Shown here: piece after piece, positions 3,331-17,870 of the stretch
How positions within the stretch are numbered: position 1 is the first letter of the stretch
Layout: each line of letters begins with the position of its first letter
From: a virus
Virus record (IMG/VR): IMGVR_UViG_3300027306_000012
Span: 1 to 27,751 of that record
Reading direction: 5' to 3' (one strand)
Length of the DNA: 27,751 nt
Translations under genes and position numbers: made by a program
The notes under the pieces: generated by a model
What the model saw: the letters and a program-made list of their open reading frames with translations, nothing else
What the model was told of the DNA's origin: nothing
Database searches by the model: none

Positions 3331-4107
3331 TCAAGAAACCAAAGAGTGATCTTGTTCCCAAGCTTTATGCAGATGCGGAGCAATGTCAAGGAAAGCATCA
3401 TCGGAAATTCTACGGTCATATCTGTCCATGAATTGATTATCATGAGCATGATACTGATAAATTTCGCCGGTCTTCTTGTCATGAATCACATGAAGATTTC
3501 CTTTGTCTTTATATGCATCAAACATGCAATGTTTGCCGTCCATCGCCGTGCACCAATCGGTCGTTCCCTTTTCATCGGTGTTTCCACCATAAAGTTTCTG
3601 AGATGCTTCTTTGCTATGAAGTCTGTAGATCTTGATTCGATCATCTTCATATTTCTTTTCTTGACCAGGGTGTTCAGGAATTTCCCAAGATTTGACAATG
3701 TGAACTTTGCCTGTATCTTCTTTGTAAGGCTCGACAGCCTTTTCAACATCACCAATCGTCTTATATTTGTTGATGTCTTTCTCTGGAAGCTTGTGTTTCC
3801 ATTTGTCAAAGAGTTCAAGGGTTGGCTTCAGTCTATGAGCATCTTCTTGACGAGTCTGACCATCATTATATCGAGCAACCGCCCATTGCGTATAGACTTT
3901 CTTCTTTGTTGGATCTGCAGTTTCGGCAAAGTGATCGACAATATCTGCTGGATCCTGATGAATAGCAGTTGAATCGTGCGAAGTATTCACGCCTTTGCTT
4001 GAATAAAGATTCTTCACGAAGTCAATACGATTCTCGAGAAGAATTCCAGACTCTGAAAGAATCTTTGATTCGATTAGAAAGTCTTTGAATTTCTTGATTT
4101 GTGTCAT
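3331..4107 (-). CDS. WCTA-motif protein with capsid-targeting-like N-terminus, 258 aa
   Basis: I do not recognise a named function. Residues 5-13 (KKFKDFLIE) match the T4 internal-protein targeting peptide (KTYQEFIAE) position by position in character. They end in an (L/I)xE protease site, and further sites end at E19 and E25. Residues 25-125 (ENRIDFVKN, then VYTQWAVARY and RQEDAHRL) and 170-250 (DWCTAM near 184-189, then IYQYHAHDNQFMD) are shared with the 450-residue protein at 12193-13545. The sequence is His-, Lys- and Asp-rich and has no membrane segment. Its own CTAAATA element lies upstream and a terminator downstream. I infer a protein packaged in the head and possibly injected; that it belongs to a phage family with a WCTA motif is pattern recognition only. 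Confidence 0.75.
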   Translation of the reverse strand: MTQIKKFKDFLIESKILSESGILLENRIDFVKNLYSSKGVNTSHDSTAIHQDPADIVDHFAETADPTKKKVYTQWAVARYNDGQTRQEDAHRLKPTLELFDKWKHKLPEKDINKYKTIGDVEKAVEPYKEDTGKVHIVKSWEIPEHPGQEKKYEDDRIKIYRLHSKEASQKLYGGNTDEKGTTDWCTAMDGKHCMFDAYKDKGNLHVIHDKKTGEIYQYHAHDNQFMDRYDRRISDDAFLDIAPHLHKAWEQDHSLVS

Positions 4108-4131
4108 GTGATTTTCCTTAAATGAGATTGA

Positions 4132-4139
4132 TTATTTAG
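4132..4139 (-). promoter_or_regulatory. Candidate late-promoter element CTAAATAA
   Basis: CTAAATAA on the minus strand lies 25 bases before the ATG at 4107. It is the closest of the set to the T4 late consensus TATAAATA. It includes the TAA stop of the upstream gene, so part of the match could be coincidental. Confidence 0.45.
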
Positions 4140-4602
4140 ACTTCTGGATTTCAAGTGATTTCAATTTAATATGAGAAGGGGCTCCATATCTTTCTGGTTC
4201 CTCTGTATCAAATGAATTGATGATGTAATCATTAGATCTATTCATTCTAGAAGTGAGCTTCTTGATAGAATTATGCATATCTATTGATGTTACAAACCGA
4301 ACTTTATTTCCTCGATTGAGAAATGGCTCTGCTAGATGTCTGATGTTTGAAATGAATCTAGGATTTGGAGCATTCCCGGTTAGCGATCCAATATTATCGT
4401 CAAAATCAAAATGATGAATTTCAATTGCTCCATCATGTTTCGATGTCGAATAATGATCTTTTCCATCTGTGAACATAGAAACATTCGAATGTCCACAGAA
4501 AGACATTGATGATTTGATCATCAATGCTTTCAGATCTTCAGCATGCTCTAGATTCGGATCCGAATCTAGAGACTCCAGAATTAGTTCATTAAGAAGTCTC
4601 AT
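4132..4602 (-). CDS. Unknown protein with ILE|S N-terminus, 156 aa
   Basis: No family is recognised. I chose the ATG at 4602 over the in-frame ATG at 4614. GGTGA, a good anti-SD match that also contains the stop of the tailspike gene, sits five bases before the 4602 ATG, and nothing similar precedes 4614. The N-terminus then reads MRLLNELILESLDSD, with (L/I)xE protease-type sites ending at E6 and E10, as in the other proposed cargo proteins. The rest is His/Asp/Ser-rich (AIEIHHFDFDDNIG, then RGNKVRFVTSIDM near residue 100) with alternating strand and helix character and no membrane segment. It sits between the tailspike-like gene and the WCTA protein. A head-packaged protein is inferred from the N-terminus and neighbours only. 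Confidence 0.65.
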   Translation of the reverse strand: MRLLNELILESLDSDPNLEHAEDLKALMIKSSMSFCGHSNVSMFTDGKDHYSTSKHDGAIEIHHFDFDDNIGSLTGNAPNPRFISNIRHLAEPFLNRGNKVRFVTSIDMHNSIKKLTSRMNRSNDYIINSFDTEEPERYGAPSHIKLKSLEIQKSK

Positions 4603-4607
4603 GTTGT

Positions 4608-7600
4608 TCACCATGTTGGATTATCTGTCCAGCTAAGGAATCCGTTTGTTGCTGCATTTGCGATATTTCCTCCCACGGAGAGTCCAGGCCATCCGCCTGT
4701 AAGAACAGCACCTTGGAAAGAACCATCGTCTGTGAAATCAATCAGAACTTCGTTAGAATTTCCATAGACTTTCACATTATTTCCGACCTTCACCATTTTC
4801 ACTCTTGCGTTTGTTGAAGGTAGATTATGAGTCACAGATCCAATGAACCACATATAAGCACCGTTCTTATACATGGCCATCGATGTCGGTCCAATGTCAA
4901 GTTTGTATCCAGTCGATGTCGACTTTGTTTGGAGAGTGAGAATCACAGTTCCAGGTGGGAGATTGAATGTTGCTCCAACGCTTTGATCGTCATTCTGAGT
5001 TCCATTTTCATGCCAAACTGGAGTGCCGTTTGAGAAGATATATGTCGTGTTACCAACTAGCTGACCATTCAGCGTTTCAAACATATCTTGAGTGAATCCG
5101 TAATAAACTGTATCTGTTCCCTTCCATTTTGGCGGATTCAGAGCACTCAGTTTAGTTCCATTTGCAGCATCAAACTGATATACTCCATTGACATCTGGAT
5201 CGTTATCAACTTGAAGCATTACAACAACATCAGAGTTTGCATATCCAATTTCACCGCCTGCATTAGATGCGGCAACCGTGCAGTAAACACCGAGTCCAAC
5301 GTAAGAAGAATCAAGAGTCACAGTTGATGAAGTTGCTCCTGGAATTGGTTGATTGTTAGATGCCGTCTTCCACTGATAAGCATAAGATGTAACAGAACCA
5401 CTCCAAGTCCCGTTCGTTACGGAAATCGGGAATGTAACTTGGAGAGATCCGCTAACAACAGGAGCTACAGTATTGATTGGAGTTGTTGCTGAAACGATAA
5501 CTCTGGCCATTGATGTTGCCGTTGCTGATCCAGCATCATTGGATGCGGTTTCCTCGACAAACAATTCATTAGTTACATCTCCTGCAACTGTCGTATATGT
5601 TGTTCCAGTTCCAACCTGCGTGATAGTTCCGCCTGTTGTTCTTCTTTTCCAGACGTAAGTTCTTGTCGATGGAATAGGAGCCCAGACACCAGGAGTAACA
5701 GTCATAACGTTACCGACAACGATATTTCCGGTAATGCTAGGATTCGTTCTGATAGAAGGAGCCGGAATCTTATTGAAAGGATAATTTACTGGATTTCCCT
5801 GAGATGCAAGTCCTCTTTGAGTTACCACTGCATAATCCGTTCCATTCAGACTGAAGAATGGAGAGGTTGGAAGCAGACTGAAATCGTTAGTTGCCCAGTC
5901 AAGGAATTGCGGATCTGTGTTGGTATTTGTTAGATTGAGGCTAGACATTGTTGCAGTCGATCTAGGTCCGCGAGCTAGTGTATCACTATTAGTAGGAACG
6001 AAGGACGCATCGATGAATACTGGACGAACATTATGGGCAATGTTATCGTTGAATACCCCAATTCCACCCCAATAGAAAATTCCCAAGTCTGGAGTTAGAG
6101 CGTATGAAGATGTAGCTTTATCTGACCAGAACAGATTGTTCTGAGCATATAGAGTTACCGCTTCTCTAATATTCATTGGAGAAAAAAGAGTATATGGAAG
6201 AGGATCGTATTGAATGCCTCTATATCCAGATGTTGCATCTCCTTTGCCGACAACAATGTTCTTGTAGAAATATACGTTTCCTCCTCGAATTTCATTGTTG
6301 ATTGAATAGAGTCCATCACCGTGACCGATTGCATTGCAACTTGTATCTCTCAAGTAGAATGTATTGGAATAGATGTAAGATTCTTGGTATAGTCTAGTTC
6401 CGAACTTATCATCGAGATTAGCAGTTGCGTCATAACTTGCTTCCGGATCTCTGATAGAGATTGCGTTGGCAGCTCCGCACAAGAATCTATTATACCTGAA
6501 AACTTGACCAGAAGATCTTTCTTTCAGATGATCTCCAGCAGATCCATCTGTCAAAGGATCGAAATAATTGAATTCGTGAATTGCATATGCACCTTCTGTA
6601 TACATGCTATGAGTGCTATAGACTCCATCTGGATTCCATGCGCCATTTCCACAATTCGTGAAGTAATTGAAAAGCGTATGAATATATCTCGACATCGATC
6701 GTTCACCAAGTGCTGGATTCGATGTTCCGAAAATTCCAAGTCCGCAGGTATCAAACTTGCATCCAGAAACTGTGATATGATCTACACCCTGGAACGTAAT
6801 TCCAGAAGCGAAAGTTCCCCATTTCTGTCTGACTCCGGTATATGCAGTAAAGTAGTTCTTTGAATTGAAGTTTCTGAATTCAAGATTTGAAATATGAATG
6901 AATGCAGGCTTGAAAGTTGAGCTTCCGCCAATTGGAAATCTAACAGTAATTGCTGCAGTTCCATAATGATACTGATTAGTCAAAGATCCTGGATATTCAA
7001 CTGCTTCAATTCCATCAAAGAATGGAAGTTCTCCATTCGGACCCTTCACGCCGATGATTTCAATCCATCTAGTCTGATCACCTCTGAAATAGATCGGAAT
7101 CATCTGTTTATATCCAGCTGCATCGTAATAGATGAAAACTCTGTCTCCCGGAAGCAAAGACAACCAAGGAACATCGTGGATGTTCGTATATTCTTTTCCT
7201 GGACCGACTCTGAAATCGTAAGAAGAATTTGTTCGTCCTACTTGCGAAGGCAGAGGAAGAGTAAAATCCCAGGCAGGGTATGTCGTTGACAGAGCAGATG
7301 TAATCGGAGTCGGTGCAGATCTTCCGTTCAAAGGATTTGGAGCAATGTTTGTTGGAACGATAGTTCCGTTTGCATATTGATTGAACCAATTCACAGTATC
7401 AGAATATGATGCTGCTGGTTGTTGCATTACGAAACTCAAATTTCCAGAGTTTGTATTAGTTCCATCTGAAATTGTATAAGAAATGTTCGGAACTAGCCCA
7501 GAGAAGTTGCTCTCTGGAGTGAAAGTATATGCACCATCTGCATTGATTCGAACAGTCCCGACACCAGAAATTGTAGCTGTAGTTCCTGGATTGAAATTCG

Positions 7601-8222
7601 ATCCTGCGCCTGTGTATGTGAAACTTACAACCGAAAGAGCATTAGATTCATAATCATAATCGTTCGAAAGAACGTTGCCCGTTAGAGTTGTATTCAGAGG
7701 CACAATTCCAACGTCTGCAGAAGCAATTGGAGCTTGATTAGATCCTGTAATTGAAATTGTCAATGTAGTTGAAGTTGATGTTCCGCCTCGGATATCTGTC
7801 ACTCTATATGTGAATACCTCAGATGCCGATTGACCTTGAGAAAGCGCTCTAGCAGCTGTTCCGAGTGTAAATGTGTAAGACCCATTCGCGCTGATAACGA
7901 AAGATCCATATGTTGTAGTGAACGAAGTTCCGACTGTATACGCAGTTGAAGAATAAGAAATTGAAGATACGACGAATGTATCTCCATCGGCATCTGTGTC
8001 ATTCGTAATGACATTTCCGGTAATATTTGTTGCAGAATCCAGAACAGTAGAGGTATCGGCAACGACACTTGGAGATCTATTGACACCAGACAAACTCGAA
8101 TTAATAGTATCCAGATCGGCCTGTAGTCCCTGAACATCTGCCTTTGTAAGAATCAAATTCCCAGAAGCATCTCCAACTTTTCCATTGATTTTTTTGATTT
8201 TGACTGATCTTGAAATTGGCAT
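4608..8222 (-). CDS. Tailspike-like multidomain adhesin, 1204 aa
   Basis: A mosaic extracellular protein. Residues ~1-45 form a short helical attachment segment (LTKADVQGLQADLDTI). Residues ~50-160 and ~164-268 are two VCBS/cadherin-like repeats with the signatures ITGNVITNDTDADGD and LTGNVLSNDYDYESN. Residues ~270-835 look like a right-handed beta-helix (GPGKEYTNIHDVPWLSLLPG, then HITVSGCKFDTCGLGIFG), the fold used by phage depolymerases and pectate lyases. Residues ~840-1010 hold two Ig-like units, each with a YxWK core. Residues ~1015-1204 resemble a concanavalin/laminin-G-type lectin domain (TGGWPGLSVGGN, FLSWTDN). I infer sugar binding, and possibly sugar cleavage, at the host surface; no catalytic residues can be assigned by eye. 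The ribosome site is AAGGA. Confidence 0.8.
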   Translation of the reverse strand: MPISRSVKIKKINGKVGDASGNLILTKADVQGLQADLDTINSSLSGVNRSPSVVADTSTVLDSATNITGNVITNDTDADGDTFVVSSISYSSTAYTVGTSFTTTYGSFVISANGSYTFTLGTAARALSQGQSASEVFTYRVTDIRGGTSTSTTLTISITGSNQAPIASADVGIVPLNTTLTGNVLSNDYDYESNALSVVSFTYTGAGSNFNPGTTATISGVGTVRINADGAYTFTPESNFSGLVPNISYTISDGTNTNSGNLSFVMQQPAASYSDTVNWFNQYANGTIVPTNIAPNPLNGRSAPTPITSALSTTYPAWDFTLPLPSQVGRTNSSYDFRVGPGKEYTNIHDVPWLSLLPGDRVFIYYDAAGYKQMIPIYFRGDQTRWIEIIGVKGPNGELPFFDGIEAVEYPGSLTNQYHYGTAAITVRFPIGGSSTFKPAFIHISNLEFRNFNSKNYFTAYTGVRQKWGTFASGITFQGVDHITVSGCKFDTCGLGIFGTSNPALGERSMSRYIHTLFNYFTNCGNGAWNPDGVYSTHSMYTEGAYAIHEFNYFDPLTDGSAGDHLKERSSGQVFRYNRFLCGAANAISIRDPEASYDATANLDDKFGTRLYQESYIYSNTFYLRDTSCNAIGHGDGLYSINNEIRGGNVYFYKNIVVGKGDATSGYRGIQYDPLPYTLFSPMNIREAVTLYAQNNLFWSDKATSSYALTPDLGIFYWGGIGVFNDNIAHNVRPVFIDASFVPTNSDTLARGPRSTATMSSLNLTNTNTDPQFLDWATNDFSLLPTSPFFSLNGTDYAVVTQRGLASQGNPVNYPFNKIPAPSIRTNPSITGNIVVGNVMTVTPGVWAPIPSTRTYVWKRRTTGGTITQVGTGTTYTTVAGDVTNELFVEETASNDAGSATATSMARVIVSATTPINTVAPVVSGSLQVTFPISVTNGTWSGSVTSYAYQWKTASNNQPIPGATSSTVTLDSSYVGLGVYCTVAASNAGGEIGYANSDVVVMLQVDNDPDVNGVYQFDAANGTKLSALNPPKWKGTDTVYYGFTQDMFETLNGQLVGNTTYIFSNGTPVWHENGTQNDDQSVGATFNLPPGTVILTLQTKSTSTGYKLDIGPTSMAMYKNGAYMWFIGSVTHNLPSTNARVKMVKVGNNVKVYGNSNEVLIDFTDDGSFQGAVLTGGWPGLSVGGNIANAATNGFLSWTDNPTW

Positions 8223-8231
8223 TATTTTTCC

Positions 8232-8489
8232 TTATACCTCTGTGATTCTTGCATATCCGGTGGGCGATCCAGCCCAAATTCCACTGATAACTCCCGTATA
8301 TACGAGGTTTGAAGATTCGTAAAAATCGCCTGGATCTAGCCGTGTAGTGAATGATGTCGTGCTTGCTGTATCTTTGAATGCAATATACAATGCAGTCGTT
8401 GCCTCGTTGATAATGATGAAGTTTTCTCTGCTAGCATTTGCTGCTAGCAGTTGAACAGATGAAGAATTTGATTGAATACTAGCTAGCAT
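8232..8489 (-). CDS. Stand-alone copy of the fibre C-terminal domain, 85 aa
   Basis: The whole protein aligns with the last ~95 residues of the 908-residue fibre encoded immediately upstream. Shared landmarks are SSSVQLLAAN against SSSVTLLASN, LYIAFKDTAS against VYIAYANTAS, RLDPGDFYES against KLDPGDYYET, and SGIWAGSPTGYARITE against a similar end. It is a compact all-beta domain of a type seen repeatedly in phage surface proteins. The start has a good ribosome site (AAGGA), and only ten bases separate it from the fibre stop. I infer a partial tandem duplication that has diverged. It may be a separate cap, an exchangeable tip or a decoration protein. Confidence 0.75.
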   Translation of the reverse strand: MLASIQSNSSSVQLLAANASRENFIIINEATTALYIAFKDTASTTSFTTRLDPGDFYESSNLVYTGVISGIWAGSPTGYARITEV

Positions 8490-8498
8490 ATTTTATCC

Positions 8499-11225
8499 TT
8501 AGGCTGTCAATTCTGTAATTGCAACAAATCCAGTCGGAGTCGAAGAAGAATCCCAAATCGCTGAAATTTGACCTCTGTAGACATATGCAGAGGTTTCATA
8601 ATAATCGCCCGGATCCAATTTGATCGAATAAGCTGTATTTGATGCAGTGTTAGCGTATGCGATATAAACCGCCATGTTAGATTCATTCGCAAAAGAAAAT
8701 CCAAGTCGATTGACATTTGATGCAAGCAAAGTTACACTGCTAGATGAAGCAGATACTTGAGTTGAAGTCGCTGTCGATGCTTTCTGGATACTTCCTCCTG
8801 CCGCAGCGGAAATCGTATTTCCAACAATCGTGATATTTGAACCAGCAGTAAGAGTGGCTTGCTTGCCATCCAATGCAGTTTGCAATCCAGTTACAGTTGA
8901 AATCGCTTGAGTTCCAGTGTGATTAGCTCTGCTCAGAAGAGTTGCATCAGGCGAGTTTGCAGTCGCATTCGTTGCAATTCCATTCAGCTTTGTCTTATCA
9001 GCTGATGACATCAATCCATTGACTGATGTGGTTGCTACAGTCGTATCAGCTTTGCCATTCAGTGCTGTTTGAGTTGCTGTTGAAATTGGCTTTGCTAGAT
9101 CCGAAGTGTTATCTACGTTATTCAAAGCCAGAGTTGTCTTGATAGACGCTGCAGATGCGGATCCAAGGATATTGTTCAGAACATAAGAAGAAACACTTGA
9201 CAAATTCACTTTAAGATCAAGTGCAGCCTGTGTAGCAATTGATACAGGCTTCGCAACGTCCGACGTGTTATCGACGTTTGCAAGTCCTACTTCACTCTTT
9301 GTGTGAGTATGAGCTGATGGAGCGAATGTCGTTGGTTTGTTTGTGATTGAAGACCAGTCTGTTTCAATTGTACCATCGATTGTAGCAGAGATTGTATTGC
9401 CAACGATTGTGACGTTTGCACCAGCAGTAAGCGTTGCTTGCTTGCCATCAAGAGCAGTTTGCAATCCCGAAACTGTCGAAATCGCTTGAGTTCCAGTGTG
9501 ATTAGCTCTATCTAGAAGAGTTGCATCAGGCGAGTTTGCTGTCGCGTTCGTATCAACTCCGTCTAGTTTGATTTTATCCGCAGGTGCCATCAAGCCAGCT
9601 TGAAGACCAGTTGCATTTGTCTTATCTGCTTTACCATCAAGAGCAGTCTGCAATCCTGAAACAGTTGAAATCGCTTGAGTTCCAGTGTGATTTGTTCTCG
9701 ATAGCAAAAACGCATCAGAAGAGTTTGCTGTTGCAGAAAAAGCAATTCCATTCAGCTTTGTCTTATCTGCTGATGACATCAAGCCATCAGCTGTCGTTGT
9801 TGCCGCCGTTTTATCTGCTTTGGCGTTAAGCGCTGTTTGAGTTGCAGTCGAAACAGGCTTGGCTAGATCGTTCGTATTCGTTACTTGATCCAATCCAAGA
9901 AGAGATTTCAGAGCGTTGGAATCTGCAGATGTAGTGAGAGTCAGAAAATATGAAGAAAATGCAACAGAATTGACTTTACCATCAAGAGCAGTCTGCAATC
10001 CAGAAACAGTTGAAATCGCTTGAGTTCCAGTGTGATTCGTTCTTGATAGCAAGAATGCATCAGTCGAGTTAGCGGTTGCGTTCGTTGCAATTCCATTCAG
10101 CTTTGTCTTATCAGCTGATGACATCAATCCATTGACTGATGTGGTTGCAACAGCATTTGATGCTTTACCATCTAGAGCAGCTTGTGTTGCTACCGAGATC
10201 GGCTTGTTTGCATCAGAGGTGTTATCGACGTTTGCAAGTCCTACTTCACTCTTTGTGTGAGTATGAGCTGATGGAGCGAATGTCGTTGGTTTGTTTGTGA
10301 TTGAAGACCAATCGGCAGTAAGGGAAAGTCCGGTGACAGAAATTGTGTCGCCGACGATAGAGATGTTAGATCCCGCGGTTAGAACATTCTGTTTAGCATT
10401 CAAAGCAGCCTGAGTGGCCGAAGAAATTGGCTTTGATAGATCCGAAGTATTATCGACGTTACCGATTCCGATTGCTGTCTTGAATGCAGATTGATTGGCT
10501 GATCCGAGAACTCCAAGAGAGTATGAAGAAACAGCCGATGAATTGACCTTACCATCCAATGCAGTCTGCAATCCCGAAACTGTCGAAATCGCTTGAGTTC
10601 CAGTGTGATTAGCTCTGTCAAGAACAAAAGAAAGATCAGCTCCTCCAATCGATCCATCTAGACCATCAAGCTTTGATTTGTCTTCTTTCGACATCAGGCC
10701 ATCTGTGATTGGAGAGGCAAGAGTCTTATCAGCCTTTGTATTCAAAGCAGCCTGAGTAGCCGAAGAAATTGGCTTTGATAGATCCGATGTGTTATCGACG
10801 TTTCCAAGACCGACTTCAAACTTCGTATGCGTATGATTTCCAGCAGCAACATCGTTAGAGCCAGTTCCCACGTCTTTGAACGCTGCAGTTCCCATATTCA
10901 GATTTGAAATGATAGCCGCGTAGTTCAGTCCAATTGCTCCGCCGACTAGAGTAATTCCGGATGCCGGAACTAGCAAATCTTGTTTAGCATTCAGAGCAGA
11001 TGATAGAGTCGGGTTGTCAGCAATCAGTCCTGAAATCAAATCCCATCTTGTTTGATAGTATCCAGTTCCATTATTAATCTGCTGGACAGTTCCATTTGAA
11101 TACTTGATGAACAATCCGCCAGAAATTTCGGAGAATGCTAGTTCGCCTGGAATAAGGTCTGTAGGCTGAGGTGTCGAATTTACAGTCGACGTCTTGATCT
11201 TGAATCTTGTTTTTTGATATGCCAT
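8499..11225 (-). CDS. Long repetitive tail fibre protein, 908 aa
   Basis: A fibrous adhesin. Residues ~1-60 (KTRFKIKTSTVNSTPQPTDL, then LIPGELAFSE) form an N-terminal attachment domain of a kind common in phage fibres. Residues ~60-810 are a shaft with five copies of HTGTQAIST(V)xGLQTALDGK. These alternate with NVDNTSDxxKPIS units of the phage fibre repeat type and with GLMSSADKTKLNGIA units. The final ~95 residues form a beta domain (LDPGDYYET, ISAIWDSS) that recurs as the separate gene downstream. The repeats are also near-identical at the DNA level, so length change by recombination is expected. The start has GGAG seven bases upstream and a CTAAGTAA element at 11248-11255. This is probably a main host-contact fibre; it is not a clear match to T4 gp34-gp37. 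Confidence 0.85.
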   Translation of the reverse strand: MAYQKTRFKIKTSTVNSTPQPTDLIPGELAFSEISGGLFIKYSNGTVQQINNGTGYYQTRWDLISGLIADNPTLSSALNAKQDLLVPASGITLVGGAIGLNYAAIISNLNMGTAAFKDVGTGSNDVAAGNHTHTKFEVGLGNVDNTSDLSKPISSATQAALNTKADKTLASPITDGLMSKEDKSKLDGLDGSIGGADLSFVLDRANHTGTQAISTVSGLQTALDGKVNSSAVSSYSLGVLGSANQSAFKTAIGIGNVDNTSDLSKPISSATQAALNAKQNVLTAGSNISIVGDTISVTGLSLTADWSSITNKPTTFAPSAHTHTKSEVGLANVDNTSDANKPISVATQAALDGKASNAVATTSVNGLMSSADKTKLNGIATNATANSTDAFLLSRTNHTGTQAISTVSGLQTALDGKVNSVAFSSYFLTLTTSADSNALKSLLGLDQVTNTNDLAKPVSTATQTALNAKADKTAATTTADGLMSSADKTKLNGIAFSATANSSDAFLLSRTNHTGTQAISTVSGLQTALDGKADKTNATGLQAGLMAPADKIKLDGVDTNATANSPDATLLDRANHTGTQAISTVSGLQTALDGKQATLTAGANVTIVGNTISATIDGTIETDWSSITNKPTTFAPSAHTHTKSEVGLANVDNTSDVAKPVSIATQAALDLKVNLSSVSSYVLNNILGSASAASIKTTLALNNVDNTSDLAKPISTATQTALNGKADTTVATTSVNGLMSSADKTKLNGIATNATANSPDATLLSRANHTGTQAISTVTGLQTALDGKQATLTAGSNITIVGNTISAAAGGSIQKASTATSTQVSASSSSVTLLASNVNRLGFSFANESNMAVYIAYANTASNTAYSIKLDPGDYYETSAYVYRGQISAIWDSSSTPTGFVAITELTA
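9265..9356 (-). repeat. 92-base perfect direct repeat, copy 1 (fibre gene)
   Basis: It is identical over 92 bases to 10219-10310, 954 bases away and in the same reading frame (954 is divisible by three). It encodes DWSSITNKPTTFAPSAHTHT and following residues. Recombination between the copies would delete or duplicate 318 residues without a frameshift. Confidence 0.85.
10219..10310 (-). repeat. 92-base perfect direct repeat, copy 2 (fibre gene)
   Basis: This is the partner of 9265-9356. A second pair, 68 bases long (8968-9035 and 10081-10148), flanks it on the same side, so two separate blocks of the shaft are duplicated almost unchanged. Confidence 0.85.
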
Positions 11226-11247
11226 GTTATCTCCGAAGAATTACTTC

Positions 11248-11255
11248 TTACTTAG
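11248..11255 (-). promoter_or_regulatory. Candidate late-promoter element CTAAGTAA
   Basis: CTAAGTAA lies 23 bases before the fibre ATG at 11225. It overlaps the Lys-TAA end of the upstream gene. It is one of nine similarly placed elements. Confidence 0.45.
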
Positions 11256-12183
11256 AATCGCTATTCTTCAGAACTGCAGAAAGCTGATCAGTTGCGTAGT
11301 CTTCATGATTTTCTCTGAATTTGTGCACATGAAGTTTCGATCCAATCACATGAGAAAGAATTGTATCCTTCGATCCTTGCTTTCTAGCCTCGAAAGTTAC
11401 TGGACTAGTTCTTGTAATGTCATGTCCTTCGTTTTCCATAGTCTTTTCGTGTTCTTTAGAAAGATCTTCAGGAGAAAGATGCGAGACATAAGCGTGATGA
11501 GTTGAATAAGATCCGGGCGATGTATGAGAACCAACTGCATAAGGCTTTTCGGACGAAAGTTCTTTGTGCACCTTCATTGCAAATCCATGAATTTCGTCTT
11601 CTCTAGCAGGATGTCCAATTGATTTGAGTTGAAGATCGCTCAATTGACTTCTGACTTCTGACGATGGTTCATACTCGAAAGCGTCGGAGTATCCTCTCTT
11701 GATTGGTTTCAGCGTTCCTAGATCATGATTGAGGTCATCGTGAAAGATCTTGTATTGCCCGTCTTCGCTCTTGAGTGCAGAGATTGGATTGCGATATCCA
11801 TTTTTGTGAGCATTGATCAATGCGTGCAAGACATGGAGTCTGACATCGTCTTTTGACTTCAGTTTATAGGTATCTTTATTGAGATTGAAGATATCAAATT
11901 TTCCAGGACTTGACTCAATGCCTGGATGAATTTTCAAAAAATCTGGATGCCATTGAAAATTATGACGATACCCACCATAGTCTTTCTGTCTTGAAACAGT
12001 AGCAATTGGCATTCCGGTTTCTTTTTCATGAATGATTCCGAAATCTTGAGATGCTCTAGTTGGAATACTTTGTTTGGCGTAATATCTAGCAGTTTTGTTA
12101 TGTTCCTCGGCTGCCTTCTTAATATCGGCAAGGTTATTGCTGATAATTGTATATTCTAGTTCTTCGTTGATAATGTCTGACAT
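11248..12183 (-). CDS. Unknown His-rich protein with INE|E N-terminus, 311 aa
   Basis: I do not recognise this protein. It is soluble by appearance, rich in His, Lys and Ser, and has no membrane segment or signal peptide. The N-terminus MSDIINEELEY contains an (L/I)xE site ending at E7. Recognisable stretches include YGGYRHNFQWHPDFLKIHPG (about residues 69-88), LHVLHALINAHKNGYRNP (about 116-133) and SYSTHHAYVSHLSPEDL (about 225-241). The ribosome site is AGAGG. It follows the 450-residue WCTA protein after ten bases, with no promoter element between, so the two are probably co-transcribed. Membership in the proposed head-cargo set is inference from position, composition and the N-terminal site; this is the weakest member of the set. 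Confidence 0.7.
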   Translation of the reverse strand: MSDIINEELEYTIISNNLADIKKAAEEHNKTARYYAKQSIPTRASQDFGIIHEKETGMPIATVSRQKDYGGYRHNFQWHPDFLKIHPGIESSPGKFDIFNLNKDTYKLKSKDDVRLHVLHALINAHKNGYRNPISALKSEDGQYKIFHDDLNHDLGTLKPIKRGYSDAFEYEPSSEVRSQLSDLQLKSIGHPAREDEIHGFAMKVHKELSSEKPYAVGSHTSPGSYSTHHAYVSHLSPEDLSKEHEKTMENEGHDITRTSPVTFEARKQGSKDTILSHVIGSKLHVHKFRENHEDYATDQLSAVLKNSDSK

Positions 12184-12192
12184 TCTTGCCTC

Positions 12193-13545
12193 TTATTTCT
12201 TCTTATTCTTCAAAGCTGCTTCTTGCACGCTAGGTTCAGAATCGTTTTTCAATTTTTCAATCACGTGCTTTGGAGTGTTCTTGTTTGATGCAACAGATGA
12301 TCTAATCCAGCTAAATTCTGACCCGGCTAGCTTTTCTAGATGTTCCGGCGAAGCTTTCTTATGTCTAGCAATCACACCTTGATATGACGGATTGTCAATG
12401 ACATGATCATGGACTTCTTTCGTTGCATTCGGATGTGCAATAGAATTGATGATGATTTCCCTATCTGATTTTGGATTTTTGATATGCTGGATCAAATGGG
12501 CAGGCGAGATAGATTTTGAATTGTTGATTGAATACACACTCTGAGGAATTGTAAGATCTCTGACTCGAGAAGATGTATTCGGATGTTCATAGAACTCATC
12601 GATTGATAGATAATATCCAGCCTTCTTGCTTTCTGCTTTCGCTGTATCATAGATTCTATCGATATGATCGGATGACAGATTCTTATTCTTGAGCAGGTTG
12701 CTAACCGAAACACTTTTAGGATGTAGCTTATGGATTTCAACTGCATCATCTGCGTCAAGCCTTCCGATTGCTCTATTGGCATATTTTCCATTTGCTTTTG
12801 AATTTTCTAGCAGCTTAGAATAATCAGATTCAAATGCCGGATGTCGATTTCGAAGTTCATCTACACCTCTAAGATCTGGATGTTTATCGACGAATTGATT
12901 GATATCTTCTGGTTTATCAAGCACATTCATGAATTGACCAGTCTCTGCATGAAATTGGTATTTCTTGTCTTCTTTCTTATCTCTGAAAACAAAAAGCGGA
13001 CCTTGACTTGAATAGTTGTCGAAATAGCTTGAATGATCTTTTGATGCTGTGCACCACTTCGTTCCTGCTCCGTATCTGCAAGCTGCATCGTGCGTATGGA
13101 TCTGATGAACTGATAGAGAATCTGTATCTAGAAGCTTAGTTGCTCCTTCTTCTTTGATAGCTTTGTCTTCTGCAGACTTTGATGTATGAGTTCCGATGTG
13201 TGGTGCCACGGCATCTTCAACTTCATTCAAACTCTTGTATTGTCCGATGTCTTTCTTTTCAAGCTTCGCTTTATGAGAATCAAAGTGTCCAAGCGATTCT
13301 TTGATTCGATCGGCATCTTCTTGTCTGAAGTCTTTATCTTTGTATCGATTCACGATCCACTGAGTGTAGATCTTCTTCTTTGATGGATCTGCATGCTCTG
13401 CAAAGTGATCGATAATCGACTTTGCATCTTTATGTTCTGCGAAGTCATCATGATCGGTTGAAATTTCTTTGACTGTGTCTTTAAGGAAATCGATTCTGTT
13501 CTCGTTGAGAAGCATTGATTCGATGAGTGTAGATAGATTGCTCAT
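12193..13545 (-). CDS. WCTA-motif plus LRV-repeat protein with LIE|S N-terminus, 450 aa
   Basis: The start chosen is the ATG at 13545 (MSNLSTLIESMLLNE), because an upstream in-frame ATG at 13653 would place the promoter-like CTAAGTA inside the gene and spoil the N-terminal match to its paralogue. (L/I)xE sites end at E9 and E15. Residues 16-112 (NENRIDFLKD, KIYTQWIVNRY, FRQEDADRI) and 155-210 (GTKWCTA at 161-167, then KYQFHAETGQFM) are shared with the 258-residue protein at 3331-4107. Residues ~265-450 read like leucine-rich-variant or HEAT-type repeats, clearest at the end: SPEHLEKLA, WIRSSVASNKNTPKHVIEKL, SVQEAALKN. A catalytic role is not apparent. It heads a new transcription unit after the capsid terminator. 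I infer a packaged protein with a protein-binding repeat tail. Confidence 0.75.
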   Translation of the reverse strand: MSNLSTLIESMLLNENRIDFLKDTVKEISTDHDDFAEHKDAKSIIDHFAEHADPSKKKIYTQWIVNRYKDKDFRQEDADRIKESLGHFDSHKAKLEKKDIGQYKSLNEVEDAVAPHIGTHTSKSAEDKAIKEEGATKLLDTDSLSVHQIHTHDAACRYGAGTKWCTASKDHSSYFDNYSSQGPLFVFRDKKEDKKYQFHAETGQFMNVLDKPEDINQFVDKHPDLRGVDELRNRHPAFESDYSKLLENSKANGKYANRAIGRLDADDAVEIHKLHPKSVSVSNLLKNKNLSSDHIDRIYDTAKAESKKAGYYLSIDEFYEHPNTSSRVRDLTIPQSVYSINNSKSISPAHLIQHIKNPKSDREIIINSIAHPNATKEVHDHVIDNPSYQGVIARHKKASPEHLEKLAGSEFSWIRSSVASNKNTPKHVIEKLKNDSEPSVQEAALKNKKK

Positions 13546-13593: not shown

Positions 13594-13668
13594 AGTCATT
13601 GATAGATTAACGACAACGGCTCTGGTTGCATTTTTATCGTTATGATGTATCAAGATATGTCCAGACGT

Positions 13669-13709: not shown

Positions 13710-14999
13710 TTACAGGAGGTTCGAAACCTTGACACGTCTGAAGAACGTGTTCGAGTTAGCAGTCATACCGCCAGTCACGTCCGTCGGGTTAGCGAACGGA
13801 TGAGCTGTCAGACCGTAACGAGTCTTGAACGCCATCTTCGGTTGGAAGCTGAGCGGATCAACAGCGCGATGCAGTTGAAGAGCTTGGTATGGGCAGTAGT
13901 AGAGACCAGCCGTATAAGCGTCTGCACCCTTACCGATAACTGCAAGCCAGTTTTCGTTGTTCGAGCCAAGATATGGATCGATAAACACACGATAACGACC
14001 GTTCAGGATACCTGCAAAGGTCACCGAAGTTTCGTCAACGATAGAAGGACCTTGAACTGCCGGAGCAAAGTCAAGAACACCAGCCAGAGCGAGAGCGGAA
14101 GCAACGTCTGACGAACAGACAATCACGTTACCACGCACCAGACGAGTTTCCTTGGCGATTTGGTTAGCATCGCGTTCGATGCCGTACATCAGACCCTTGA
14201 ACTTCTCAACAGACCAACGGCCACCGGAGTCAACGTCGAGGTCGAAGATACCAGGAACGGTCGCAAACTGAGCACCAGGCTTAGCGGACACGAGGATGGT
14301 ACGAACGATTTCGCGGTTTTGTTCCGAGATGATTTCCGTCGACAGGATGTCGATCAGTTCTTGCTCAGCTTCCACACCGTGGATTGCGCGCAGGTCTTGC
14401 ACGAGTTCCACAGAGTATTCGGCCTTCAGAGCGCGAGTCTTGGCTTCGACCATCTTCGATTCGAAGGTCATGGACATTTCGGCGATAGCTGGGCTACCGG
14501 AAGTACCAAGAGCTTCACCAGCAGCAGTCGACATACCTGTACCGTATGTGAACGTACCAGGAACAGTATCGTTCAGAACGCCAGGGTTAGTACCTGCTTG
14601 AGTGCCAGTACCGGAGAAACCAGTATTAGCTTCTTGATAGAGAGCTTCCGAACCAGCTTGGTTCGTGTACTTTGCGCGTCTTGCAAAGATCTTACCAGTA
14701 GGCATGACCATTGGTTGAACGCCGCAAAGTTCAAAGCCGATGTGCAGAGGAGCAGTACGACGAACCAGCGAGATCAGAACCGGGTCAAACTTAGCGATGC
14801 CGCCTGTATCCGAGTAGCCACCAACCGAGTTAGTTGGAGCTGCTTCGAACAGAGCATGGCGAGTTTCTTCGTTTGCCTTTTCTTGGTTCTCGAGAAGGAT
14901 TGCAGTCACCTTGCGACGATATGCATCCTTAATTTCGCCGACGCCTTCCACGTCGAGCACTTCTGCCCACTTTTCGGTCAGGATTTGATCTTTTTCCAT
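13710..14999 (-). CDS. 23: Major capsid protein, gp23-like, 429 aa
   Basis: The precursor of the main head shell protein. The T4 gp23 signature is clear: LVRRTAPLHIGFELCGVQPM followed by PTGKIFARRAKYTNQAG, and later a capsid-fold body ending FFRRVKVSNLL. Residues 50-53 read LFE|A, a proper (L/I)xE site for the gp21 protease, so maturation should remove a 52-residue propeptide (65 in T4). At 429 residues it is shorter than T4's 521. Codon use looks richer in G and C at third positions than its neighbours, with CGT-type arginine codons where flanking genes favour AGA, as expected for a very highly expressed gene. The ribosome site is AAAAGGA. A separate vertex protein gene (gp24) is not adjacent. 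Confidence 0.95.
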   Translation of the reverse strand: MEKDQILTEKWAEVLDVEGVGEIKDAYRRKVTAILLENQEKANEETRHALFEAAPTNSVGGYSDTGGIAKFDPVLISLVRRTAPLHIGFELCGVQPMVMPTGKIFARRAKYTNQAGSEALYQEANTGFSGTGTQAGTNPGVLNDTVPGTFTYGTGMSTAAGEALGTSGSPAIAEMSMTFESKMVEAKTRALKAEYSVELVQDLRAIHGVEAEQELIDILSTEIISEQNREIVRTILVSAKPGAQFATVPGIFDLDVDSGGRWSVEKFKGLMYGIERDANQIAKETRLVRGNVIVCSSDVASALALAGVLDFAPAVQGPSIVDETSVTFAGILNGRYRVFIDPYLGSNNENWLAVIGKGADAYTAGLYYCPYQALQLHRAVDPLSFQPKMAFKTRYGLTAHPFANPTDVTGGMTANSNTFFRRVKVSNLL

Positions 15000-15032: not shown

Positions 15033-15040
15033 TTACTTAC
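15033..15040 (-). promoter_or_regulatory. Candidate late-promoter element GTAAGTAA
   Basis: GTAAGTAA lies 34 bases before the capsid ATG at 14999. It overlaps the Lys-TAA end of the scaffold gene. The first base departs from the common C, so it is one of the weaker copies. Confidence 0.35.
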
Positions 15041-17192
15041 GCTTCGTTGTAGCCTTTCTGATATGATCTGCATACTTTGAAACCCGTGTTTCAGAAGGTT
15101 TCTTGATTTCTGCATCTTCAACCAGAGGTTTAGACGACAAATTCAGCTTAGATTGATCGATTTCGATTTTCTTGCCACTTCCGAAAACAGACTCTTTCAA
15201 CGAAGATAGTCTCTTAGTTAGTTCTTCGTTTGAAGTTGGTCCGAGTTCTTCTACAAGAGTTTTCAGCTTGATAGCATCGATTTCGGTCATTCCTTTGGTC
15301 GCGTTCTCCATGATGATTTCACGCTTTGTGTCTTCGAGCATTTGAGCCTTTTCATCAAGAGCGAGTTTCAATTGGACGATTTCGTCTTTGAGTTCGTCTT
15401 GAGTCTTTTCCATTGATTCCACGATGTCGATCTTCTCGACTGGGAAATCAATGTAATGGGCATCAAATACTTTCTTGATACTTTCCATGAACGATTCGGT
15501 CAGACTAGACCTGGTTCCTGCTTCTAGAGCAAGTTCATTATCACGCATCCATTGTTCCGACAGAATGTCGAAATATCCATCAATTTGTTCAATCAAATTT
15601 CTTTCAAACTCGGAGACAGACTCTTCGAGCTTTTGTGTGTATGTTGCTTCGAACTGAGCAGTTTTCTCTGCAACTGCAAGTTCAACTTCTTCTGCAAGCT
15701 TTGCTTCAAATAGAGCTCTTGCTTGTTCTTTGAATTCTTCTGAGAGCTCTTCAACTTCTTCTTGAACTTTGCCAGAAAGAATATCAACAGTCTTCTTCAG
15801 ATGCGAAGGATGGTTGAAGAAACTATCCGCTTGAGCAGCAGATCCACTGAACACATTCAGTTTTGCTCCGCCATCCTTATGACGTGCTACAATTGAAGCT
15901 CCGTTATTTCCAGCTTTGGCATGGAGAGTGATTGTCCAGTCGCCATGCTGAATAGAATCGCCACCAGTTTCACCAGATGCAGAATAAGATCCATCATTCA
16001 ATGACTCATTGAAATCGAGAAGATTTTGAAACTTTGATCTGGACATACCAAAGTGCTTATGCATTTCACCTGAAGCATTTGCATCTTCAAGTTCTGGTTT
16101 CTTATTCACAAAGTCGAGAACTGCCGCTTCTCCTCTCGAATTTGGATTATAGAGATAATCGTGAATTTGCTTGGGACTAAAATTTGCATCATGCTTTTTA
16201 TTGAAGAAATCGGTTGCCTTCTCAATGACATGATCTCTGGTTGCAGATTCTTCGATCTTTTCTTCTTCGTCTTCTGGCTGAGGATTTTGGTCATCGGCAT
16301 CAGAACCAGCAAGAGCTGGATCTAGAGGATTCTCGATTGTTACAGCAGGCTCATCTGTAACTTGATCTGCTTTGCCTTCTGCATCGTCTTTCATTTCTTT
16401 CTTGGATTCATTGAAAGGATTTCTGCTAGAATTAAAATTTCCACGATGATCGGAAATTTCATCGTCTTCTTTATCGGACTCGAATTTAGGTTTTGTCAGA
16501 CCATAGACACTTGAAGTTGAATAATGGTTAGACTCTGGCATACCGTCAATTTCTCCAGATTTGATCGTGAATGGCTTAGTTCCAGGAACCAAAGCAAATT
16601 CGTGGCTAGAAGGAAGAACTGGATGTGCAGTTACGCTTCCATCTTCATTCTTAGATAGAACTTTGAAATGTCTGATATTGTCTCCATAGTATACATCATC
16701 TCCATGATTATCATATGTGTATACATGATTCGGTTCCAATTCGGACGTATGAAACAATTGCGAAGCTTTGTATCCAGAAGAACTCTTAGAAGTTCTGGCT
16801 GTCTTCCAATCTTTTGCAAAGCCTAGAGCATATTCTTCCCGATTTGATGCATACGGATCTTCAGTTTCTTCAGAAAGCTTGGAGATTTTGTTTTGCATTT
16901 CTGTCTTATCTCCTTGATATCCACCATTGCTTGAAATCTTCACAAGATGTCCACCATGAAGACCTTCTGTACCAGCGTATCCATCAATGAAGTTATCTGT
17001 TTCCGTATGTTCATGAACCGCTTTTGCCTCATCTGCAGAAAGATGAGGATTCTGAGCAAGAATTTCATCGGGACTGTATACGTCATCACAGCATGCTGCA
17101 AATGGCTTTCCGTTGACTGTGCCTTTCATGTGATATTCGACCAGTTCGGTCTTTCCTTCCATGATAGCAAGCAATTTCTTTTCAATTGTCAT
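15033..17192 (-). CDS. 22: Prohead scaffold gp22 with ~470-residue N-terminal extension, 719 aa
   Basis: Residues ~470-719 are a gp22 scaffold: long helices rich in Glu and Lys, with YFDILSEQWMRDNELALEAG aligning to the T4 stretch around AKEWLAENKLAVDKG, then DIVESMEKTQDEL and a C-terminus VSKYADHIRKA. T4 gp22 is about 269 residues, so residues 1-470 are extra. These comprise an N-terminal tag with IME|G (residues 10-13), a first domain (~13-235), an acidic linker (~236-315) closed by IEE|S (313-316), and a second domain (~316-468, with HGDWTITLHAKAGNNGASI). By hand count, (L/I)xE sites number 13 in residues 483-719 but only four before that, and none from 316 to 482. No internal start is evident near 470, so this is one polypeptide. 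I infer cargo domains carried into the prohead by the scaffold. Confidence 0.9.
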   Translation of the reverse strand: MTIEKKLLAIMEGKTELVEYHMKGTVNGKPFAACCDDVYSPDEILAQNPHLSADEAKAVHEHTETDNFIDGYAGTEGLHGGHLVKISSNGGYQGDKTEMQNKISKLSEETEDPYASNREEYALGFAKDWKTARTSKSSSGYKASQLFHTSELEPNHVYTYDNHGDDVYYGDNIRHFKVLSKNEDGSVTAHPVLPSSHEFALVPGTKPFTIKSGEIDGMPESNHYSTSSVYGLTKPKFESDKEDDEISDHRGNFNSSRNPFNESKKEMKDDAEGKADQVTDEPAVTIENPLDPALAGSDADDQNPQPEDEEEKIEESATRDHVIEKATDFFNKKHDANFSPKQIHDYLYNPNSRGEAAVLDFVNKKPELEDANASGEMHKHFGMSRSKFQNLLDFNESLNDGSYSASGETGGDSIQHGDWTITLHAKAGNNGASIVARHKDGGAKLNVFSGSAAQADSFFNHPSHLKKTVDILSGKVQEEVEELSEEFKEQARALFEAKLAEEVELAVAEKTAQFEATYTQKLEESVSEFERNLIEQIDGYFDILSEQWMRDNELALEAGTRSSLTESFMESIKKVFDAHYIDFPVEKIDIVESMEKTQDELKDEIVQLKLALDEKAQMLEDTKREIIMENATKGMTEIDAIKLKTLVEELGPTSNEELTKRLSSLKESVFGSGKKIEIDQSKLNLSSKPLVEDAEIKKPSETRVSKYADHIRKATTKRK

Positions 17193-17215: not shown

Positions 17216-17223
17216 TTACTTAG
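17216..17223 (-). promoter_or_regulatory. Candidate late-promoter element CTAAGTAA
   Basis: CTAAGTAA lies 24 bases before the scaffold ATG at 17192. It includes the TAA stop of the protease gene. It is identical to the copies at 11248, 20554 and 26169. Confidence 0.45.
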
Positions 17224-17870
17224 ACCTTGATTTTATCAAGGAATGTTTTGAACGCATTCAATTTAGCAGATTCTAGATCAGACATTGAAGCCGCTCTTAC
17301 AGAATCTCTGATTTCAAAAAGATCTTTTTCGACTAGAATATCTCCGTACTTGACATACTCGACGTCTTCCATCAGACATTCGACAAAGGCATCTGCCACA
17401 GATGGATCAAAAACAACATCAGCTGCTGTTTTGATTTCATATCCTTCTTTGACATACGTCGTACCATTCTTCTTGATGATGTCACCAACACCTCTCGAAG
17501 AAACTCCGATCTTGACTCCATCATCAAGAAGATTACCAAGAAGCTTACCTAGCGGAGTAGAAAGAACTTTGGCTTTACCGATGTAGTGATTACCTTCTTG
17601 CTCTAGACTTTCGACAAGAATGCAAGCTCTTTCTGGATCAACAGATACTCTTCCGGCTGGATGGTTTAGTTCTCCCAGCGCTCTGCGATTGTCAATGAAA
17701 ACTTTCTGATATGTCCGAACAGCTTCCTCCATCACTTTCTTTGGATAGATTCTTCCATTGCGATTTTTCTTATCGAACATGAGAAATTTTCCGACAATTT
17801 TCATTGTCGGTTTTCCGTTTTCAATTTCCCGAATAACTTCGGAGTCGACTTGTTCGATGAGATACTGCAT
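17220..17870 (-). CDS. 21: Prohead maturation protease, gp21-like, 216 aa
   Basis: A serine protease of the T4 prohead core that digests scaffold and trims capsid and internal proteins after (L/I)xE. The family signature is visible: KFLMFDKKNRNGRIYPKKVM at 28-47, the catalytic His in GELNHP (H70), and the catalytic Ser in GVSSRGVG (S124 or S125). Length matches T4 gp21 (about 212). Sites such as LME|D (166-169) and LFE|I (184-187) near the C-terminus fit self-processing. It lies directly before the scaffold, as in T4, and begins two bases after the upstream stop (TGA-AA-ATG). Its specificity is supported here by the LFE|A site in the capsid precursor. Confidence 0.95.
   Translation of the reverse strand: MQYLIEQVDSEVIREIENGKPTMKIVGKFLMFDKKNRNGRIYPKKVMEEAVRTYQKVFIDNRRALGELNHPAGRVSVDPERACILVESLEQEGNHYIGKAKVLSTPLGKLLGNLLDDGVKIGVSSRGVGDIIKKNGTTYVKEGYEIKTAADVVFDPSVADAFVECLMEDVEYVKYGDILVEKDLFEIRDSVRAASMSDLESAKLNAFKTFLDKIKV

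Follow-up and report, generated by a model that had tools for sequence, protein, structure and literature searches.

The internal proteins IPI, IPII and IPIII of phage T4, together with Alt, which is a precedent for a packaged enzyme (PMC9958956), carry an N-terminal peptide with an [LI]xE site near residue 10 in a phage that has a gp21 protease. The published propeptide removals from other T4 proteins comprise 10 residues for gp24, 9 for gp21 and 65 for gp23 (PMC9958956). A further described protein, gp205 of the Pseudomonas aeruginosa phage PA5oct, is listed as virion-associated, and an alpha-N-acetylglucosaminidase function has been suggested for it at 66.5% model confidence (PMC6950013). 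Here, the 27,751-base virus record IMGVR_UViG_3300027306_000012 was analysed as one window, a term used below for this whole stretch of DNA. The window is a fragment of a T4-like myovirus that encodes gp17 to gp23, and it carries two genes for proteins of 450 and 258 amino acids (aa) that share a domain named WCTA after a motif common to both. The WCTA proteins resemble the T4 internal proteins and Alt in their N-terminal peptide, in the gp21 protease of the phage, in their non-core distribution and, for one relative, in virion evidence, but their mature parts showed no sequence relation. Most WCTA members are also larger than the T4 internal proteins, and the family has a common domain of its own and often ends in repeat tails.

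It is proposed, at what we judge to be an even chance, that both proteins are loaded into the capsid as cargo in the manner of the T4 internal proteins, and would be trimmed by gp21 and ejected with the DNA, the WCTA domain serving as a module that binds a host factor. Taken in its parts, this means that WCTA proteins are probably packaged into the head and trimmed by the protease, and possibly ejected; homology, family extent, the N-terminal motif, co-occurrence with gp21 and domain anatomy were computed here and the virion relative comes from the literature, while cleavage, packaging of the window pair, ejection, target and activity are what we infer. The N-terminal peptides (ending in LIE-9 and LLNE-15 in the 450-aa protein and in LLE-25 in the 258-aa protein) would direct the proteins into the prohead core, and the phage's own gp21-type head maturation protease (17220..17870, minus strand; phrog_207, E 2.3e-58), the presumed processing enzyme, would cut after [LI]xE. 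The remainder, a helical domain and the WCTA domain plus any repeat tail, would stay in the head and might then enter the host with the DNA. There the WCTA domain would most likely bind a factor involved in restriction, defence or takeover, action as a Cys-His hydrolase being less likely, while the variable repeat tail would help to choose the target.

What these proteins do is best indicated by a feature outside the WCTA block, the N-terminal [LI]xE motif found across the family. This putative prohead-protease and capsid-targeting signature had not been mentioned in an earlier sequence-only reading of this DNA. The N-terminus of the 450-aa protein, MSNLSTLIESMLLNE (13501..13545, minus strand), resembles a capsid-targeting propeptide with [LI]xE at E9 and E15, and that of the 258-aa protein, MTQIKKFKDFLIESKILSESGILLE (4033..4107, minus strand), contains three such sites at E13, E19 and E25. 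Elsewhere in the family N-termini such as MKFSEIILE-N, MRVTEFIAE-G, MQFSELIIE-S and MKLFELFLIE-N are found. [LI]xE occurs within the first 30 residues of 69 of 74 WCTA open reading frames (ORFs), compared with 104 of 268 distant and 79 of 173 flanking ORFs from the same loci, and its glutamate stands most commonly at residue 9 (29 of those WCTA ORFs). When one member is taken per 62%-identity cluster the motif is present in 52 of 58 (Fisher p 5e-13 against distant ORFs), and segments taken deeper inside the same WCTA proteins contain it in 5-22% of cases. An alignment of 16 members shows E15 of the 450-aa protein in every row, though the N-termini differ in length.

T4 served as a control. IPII and IPIII both begin MKTYQEFIAE-A (IAE-10), gp24 begins MAKINELLRE-S (LRE-10) and gp21 MNEPQLLIE-T (LIE-9), with further sites in IPI (ITE-19), Alt (ITE-6) and gp23 (LTE-65); the motif glutamates of gp24, gp21 and gp23 coincide exactly with the ends of the published removals (PMC9958956). 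Within the window, [LI]xE lies in the first 40 residues of gp21, gp22, gp23, both WCTA proteins and two proteins of 160 and 311 aa, and it was not found in the same stretch of gp17, gp18, gp19, gp20 or the two long fibre-like proteins. A Pfam S77 protease is present in 13 of the 23 WCTA-bearing records over 100 kb. The virion evidence comes from PA5oct EST35_0205, taken from the numbering to be gp205, which is annotated as 'structural protein, ESI-MS/MS'. Packaging is suggested because the motif is family-wide and is matched by the T4 control, and because one relative has been detected in a virion.

Several observations weigh against this proposal. [LI]xE is short and is present in 26-39% of background ORFs, and a match is to the motif only and not to a cleavage event. 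In the window pair alone it is unremarkable, as about one third of shuffled sequences contain the motif within residues 1-20, and the argument is therefore made from the family. The other 10 of the 23 large WCTA-bearing records give no S77 protease match, although these records are perhaps incomplete. Detection in the virion concerns one relative, whose place within the particle is not stated, and a proteome of the major bands of phage MIJ3 did not report the MIJ3 WCTA homologue (PMC6892783). Head genes showed no bias towards the surroundings of WCTA genes in PHROG scans that covered 119 flanking and 109 distant genes, and gene position is therefore counted as evidence only in the window and the Wroclawviruses. 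Ejection and a host target, finally, are purely what we infer.

The evidence for packaging would serve equally well for a static structural protein, that is a minor capsid, inner-body or scaffold part that is packaged and trimmed but inactive in the host, since ejection in the cargo proposal is only conjectured. Gene order fits such a part too, as a WCTA gene follows gp23 in the window and lies after the terminase gene or amid structural genes in the Wroclawviruses. A core structural part would, however, hardly show the patchy distribution and strong divergence of this family, its 1-8 copies per genome (profile searches of the 23 records over 100 kb) or its changing C-terminal modules, which include LRV, DUF4116/HEAT-like and WG repeats and a GH19 endolysin; the paralogue expansion and the changing modules were counted in favour of cargo. 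Moreover, G126, a related 168-kb T4-like record, has a single WCTA copy, which lies some 120 kb away from the capsid gene. A purely static role is thus considered rather unlikely.

The 450-aa protein (12193..13545, minus strand) is the long paralogue with a repeat tail and the 258-aa protein (3331..4107, minus strand) the short one that lacks it. With AAGAAAGAAGAGC in front of it, the ATG at 13545 is regarded as a better start for the long paralogue than an in-frame TTG at 13653, which would yield 486 aa. BLASTP aligns the two proteins with 105 of 251 residues identical (42%, 161 bits, E 4e-51), a similarity far above chance, and so bears out the paralogous pair proposed by the sequence-only reading, both ORFs being found where it had placed them. 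Its description of genes some 8 kb apart and separated by fibre genes holds as well, with 8.1 kb between them that contain a 908-aa tail-repeat protein and a 1204-aa adhesin-like protein with cadherin/immunoglobulin (Ig) domains. The same reading had divided the similarity into two blocks; all of the motifs that it listed (ENRIDF, YTQW.V.RY, RQEDA, KDI..YK, WCTA, YQ(F/Y)HA and QFM) are present and aligned in both paralogues, but they lie in one continuous homologous stretch, residues 7-243 of the 450-aa protein. A maximum-likelihood tree places both paralogues inside one supported seven-member clade, where the 258-aa protein pairs with a 261-aa protein from a different T4-like phage (L032; support 99/93) and not with its 450-aa neighbour, and the duplication therefore predates this phage.

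The domain anatomy was derived from AlphaFold models, that of the 450-aa protein being built from an alignment with 50 relatives and reaching a predicted local distance difference test score (pLDDT) above 90 across most of residues 21-230. An N-terminal helical domain (residues 41-116; 13198..13425, minus strand) is modelled with pLDDT above 95. It is followed by the WCTA core (residues 135-210; 12916..13143, minus strand), a bb-a-[WC]-a-bbb arrangement with strands at 135-140 and 144-149, a helix at 152-158, the WCTA stretch (W164-A167; 13045..13056, minus strand), a second helix at 175-181 and strands at 184-189, 194-199 and 204-206. The corresponding core of the 258-aa paralogue, located by BLASTP alignment, spans 3412..3651 on the minus strand with its WCTA at 3544-3555. 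Modelled alone as 119 aa the core gives a pLDDT of 88 and a predicted template modelling (TM) score, pTM, of 0.79; it is thus predicted with confidence to be compact, and it has no fold match in the PDB, where the best E is 0.23 and weak acetyltransferase-like hits have TM below 0.4.

The C-terminal tail of the 450-aa protein (residues 265-449; 12199..12753, minus strand) is modelled as an alpha-solenoid of the LRV type and matches the LRV protein 1lrv in the PDB with a Foldseek probability of 1.00. In the models this tail looks LRV-like in fold, although its sequence falls below the Pfam LRV cut-off (14 bits against 21.6). The likeness to LRV proteins is limited to this solenoid and does not extend to the 258-aa paralogue, which has no tail. 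A search of viral models with the full-length model brought up PA5oct, numerous phage proteins and proteins of metagenomic Marseilleviruses. Three Marseillevirus models in BFVD (A0A481Z016, A0A481YW50 and A0A481YZT2) match the WCTA model at E 1e-9 to 1e-11, one of them named as an ankyrin repeat protein and one annotated as a glutamate--tRNA ligase. Judged from these models, the WCTA domain may extend to viruses of eukaryotes.

Conservation was assessed on profile-found members not selected by pattern in their own right, together with the window and database-phage proteins. Pattern-selected members cannot be used for this purpose, as the residues of [YF]G[KN]..T.WCTA are fixed by the pattern and the result would be circular; a few rows of the profile-found set do overlap pattern-selected genes. 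In that set the glycine and the cysteine are each present in 46 of 46, the tyrosine in 44 of 46, the tryptophan in 41 of 46 (phenylalanine in the rest), the threonine after the cysteine in 42 of 46 and a late aspartate in 38 of 42. The histidine common to the window pair is replaced in large subfamilies, the glutamine also varies in one subfamily, and the Q-hydrophobic-H triplet is retained in 29 of 67 non-redundant members. The conserved Trp, Cys, His and Gln site suggested by the sequence-only reading therefore survives in its cysteine and, for the most part, its tryptophan, but not in its histidine and glutamine. A Cys-His active site is rejected as a feature of the family, given this variation of the histidine.

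These residues bear directly on the idea that the domain is a cysteine-dependent hydrolase or transferase, with the invariant cysteine as nucleophile and a histidine as partner, that modifies a host target after delivery. Invariance of the glycine and cysteine, the near-invariant tyrosine and the conserved aspartate speak for such an enzyme, as does the example of T4 Alt. The loss of the histidine from large subfamilies speaks against it, and so does the fold search, in which no enzyme was matched. A role in binding or structure, or an unusual kind of catalysis, fits an invariant cysteine that lacks a conserved partner base better than does a standard Cys-His hydrolase, and the enzyme explanation is accordingly held to be unlikely.

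It was also considered that WCTA is a divergent form of the PcfJ-like domain (PF14284), found in intracellular proteins of mobile elements, and that it shares whatever role PcfJ has, perhaps in conjugation or phage conflict. PcfJ genes occur in plasmids and phages, usually adjoining PcfK. The likeness consists of weak fold similarity, with Foldseek listing two viral proteins named PcfJ-like (probability 0.90 and 0.77), and of a glycine six residues before the key cysteine (Gly-x5-Cys), followed in both families by a similar hairpin and a final strand; the best hhalign register also places cysteine on cysteine. Against this, the Foldseek matches have E values of 0.05-0.11, hhalign gives E 0.2-0.8 and a probability below 1% with PcfJ alignments of 7 and of 127 rows, and the score of the real PcfJ alignment is equalled or exceeded by 96 of 150 column-shuffled ones. 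A Pfam scan found no PF14284 match in the window proteins or in 50 members. PcfJ homology is therefore not significant by profile comparison and remains a weak structural lead, and a shared identity with PcfJ is judged quite improbable. PcfJ-like proteins with EG..M.HCV..Y are themselves very common in viral contigs (at least 120, L210-L329) and are often over 1000 aa long.

PA5oct gp205 and its homologues in MIJ3, Paride, Callisto, Ettore and other Wroclawviruses share 30-38% identity with the window proteins over the common domain and have the N-terminus MKLFEVFTLYED, but differ in the C-terminal region. The published suggestion for gp205 raises the possibility that WCTA proteins are virion enzymes, glycosidases or depolymerases that act on the biofilm matrix or the cell envelope, and a 756-aa WCTA protein with an IAE-9 N-terminus (L020:1175-3445) does carry a fused GH19 domain of chitinase/endolysin type (PF00182 E 5e-13; phrog_181 E 1e-43). 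That hydrolase is, however, a separate domain behind the WCTA domain and is missing from the window proteins. The gp205 sequence has no glycosidase match in the PDB, the best hit being an unrelated flagellar protein at E 0.67, and no glycosidase is among the fold matches listed for the 450-aa model or its core. The core also has no conserved carboxylate pair, glycine, cysteine and tyrosine being its most conserved residues, and the inside of the head, not the tail tip, is the destination indicated by the N-terminal signal. Such an enzyme is therefore very improbable.

The WCTA domain is without a described function in the literature or databases, as the sequence-only reading had supposed. Searches of Pfam and NCBIfam gave no match above threshold for the family, PADLOC and solved structures gave none either, and no literature was found that mentions WCTA together with phage. 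Two PHROGs of unknown function, phrog_17056 and phrog_28193, each match 47 of 50 aligned members and are in effect the database names of one family split in two, neither with a note on function or on a targeting peptide. Among annotated phages, relatives occur in the P. aeruginosa Wroclawviruses, Caulobacter phage CcrBL9 and Salicola phage SCTP-2. Viral contigs were scanned with a degenerate DNA pattern that encodes [YF]G[KN]..T.WCTA exactly and so misses variants; it was found in at least 120 stretches with at least 123 WCTA ORFs. Across about 85,000 prokaryote species, with one genome each, the same pattern gave 13 stretches, five of which read as phage-type WCTA members, all on contigs of metagenome-derived assemblies. 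The pattern undercounts both collections and the contrast is qualitative only, but the family is clearly mainly viral. A further locus from the prokaryote scan, L137:5857-7971, is a Mollicutes gene amid housekeeping genes in which a divergent WCTA-like domain (YGKGTGWCTAGG...) precedes long leucine-rich-like repeats; a related-loci search with this bacterial leucine-rich-repeat-type member found none in viral contigs.

On the minus strand the window encodes, in order, a baseplate-wedge-like gene, gp17, gp18, gp19, a small homing-endonuclease-like gene, the gp20 portal, the gp21 protease, an enlarged gp22, gp23, the 450-aa WCTA gene, the 311-aa gene, the fibre-like genes, the 160-aa gene and the 258-aa WCTA gene, gp18 and gp19 being identified from position and a reading of their translations. 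The gp23 major capsid protein (13710..14999, minus strand; PF07068 E 8e-117) has [LI]xE sites in its N-terminal region, and the 450-aa WCTA gene is the first gene after it, with a hairpin and T-run between the two. The gp22 scaffold homologue (719 aa; 15033-17192) matches T4_CASP within residues 479-710 only and has an N-terminal extension of about 480 aa ahead of this match; a 531-aa N-terminal piece of it gave no tblastn match among 50,697 phage records. The 1204-aa cadherin/Ig protein, with domains of bacterial type (4608-8222), is likely an adhesin-type fibre. Despite the T4-type head genes, no copy of ATAAATA, the core of T4 late promoters, occurs anywhere in the window (0 against 4.2 expected by chance), and the timing of WCTA gene expression thus cannot be argued from late promoters.

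The 311-aa gene (11248..12183, minus strand; [LI]xE at E7) lies directly downstream of the 450-aa gene, and a 278-aa homologue (L003:7679-8515; 26% identity, E 1e-15) directly follows a WCTA gene in L003; no relatives of the 311/278-aa gene are known in annotated phages. As this type of gene stands next to a WCTA gene in two phages, its product and the WCTA-LRV protein may work together in that branch as a two-gene unit. Next to the 258-aa gene, the 160-aa protein (4132..4614, minus strand; [LI]xE at E10 and E14) had no family match in the profile searches and is possibly a further capsid cargo, to judge from its N-terminus. In L001 (1001-9469), MK-L-x-E-type N-termini are common to a nucleotidyltransferase-like 226-aa protein, a ParB-like 179-aa protein and two WCTA proteins. 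This group looks like a cargo cluster, and the N-terminal motif could serve to find others of the kind.

Detailed knowledge of internal head proteins exists for very few phages, and these proteins vary so much in sequence that they are rarely noticed. A family with a common domain joined to a targeting peptide would provide candidates for injection from a wide range of large phages together, PA5oct and Paride among them. It is a possible, if tentative, extension that few families of effectors injected by phages are larger than WCTA, which would then be a virus-borne fold with an invariant glycine and cysteine, released from the head as infection begins, present in up to eight copies per genome and given different repeat tails or enzymes with which to disarm different host targets. 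The P. aeruginosa jumbo phages PA5oct and Paride are already in laboratories, and such a family would also make the role of injected proteins in the first minutes of infection testable.

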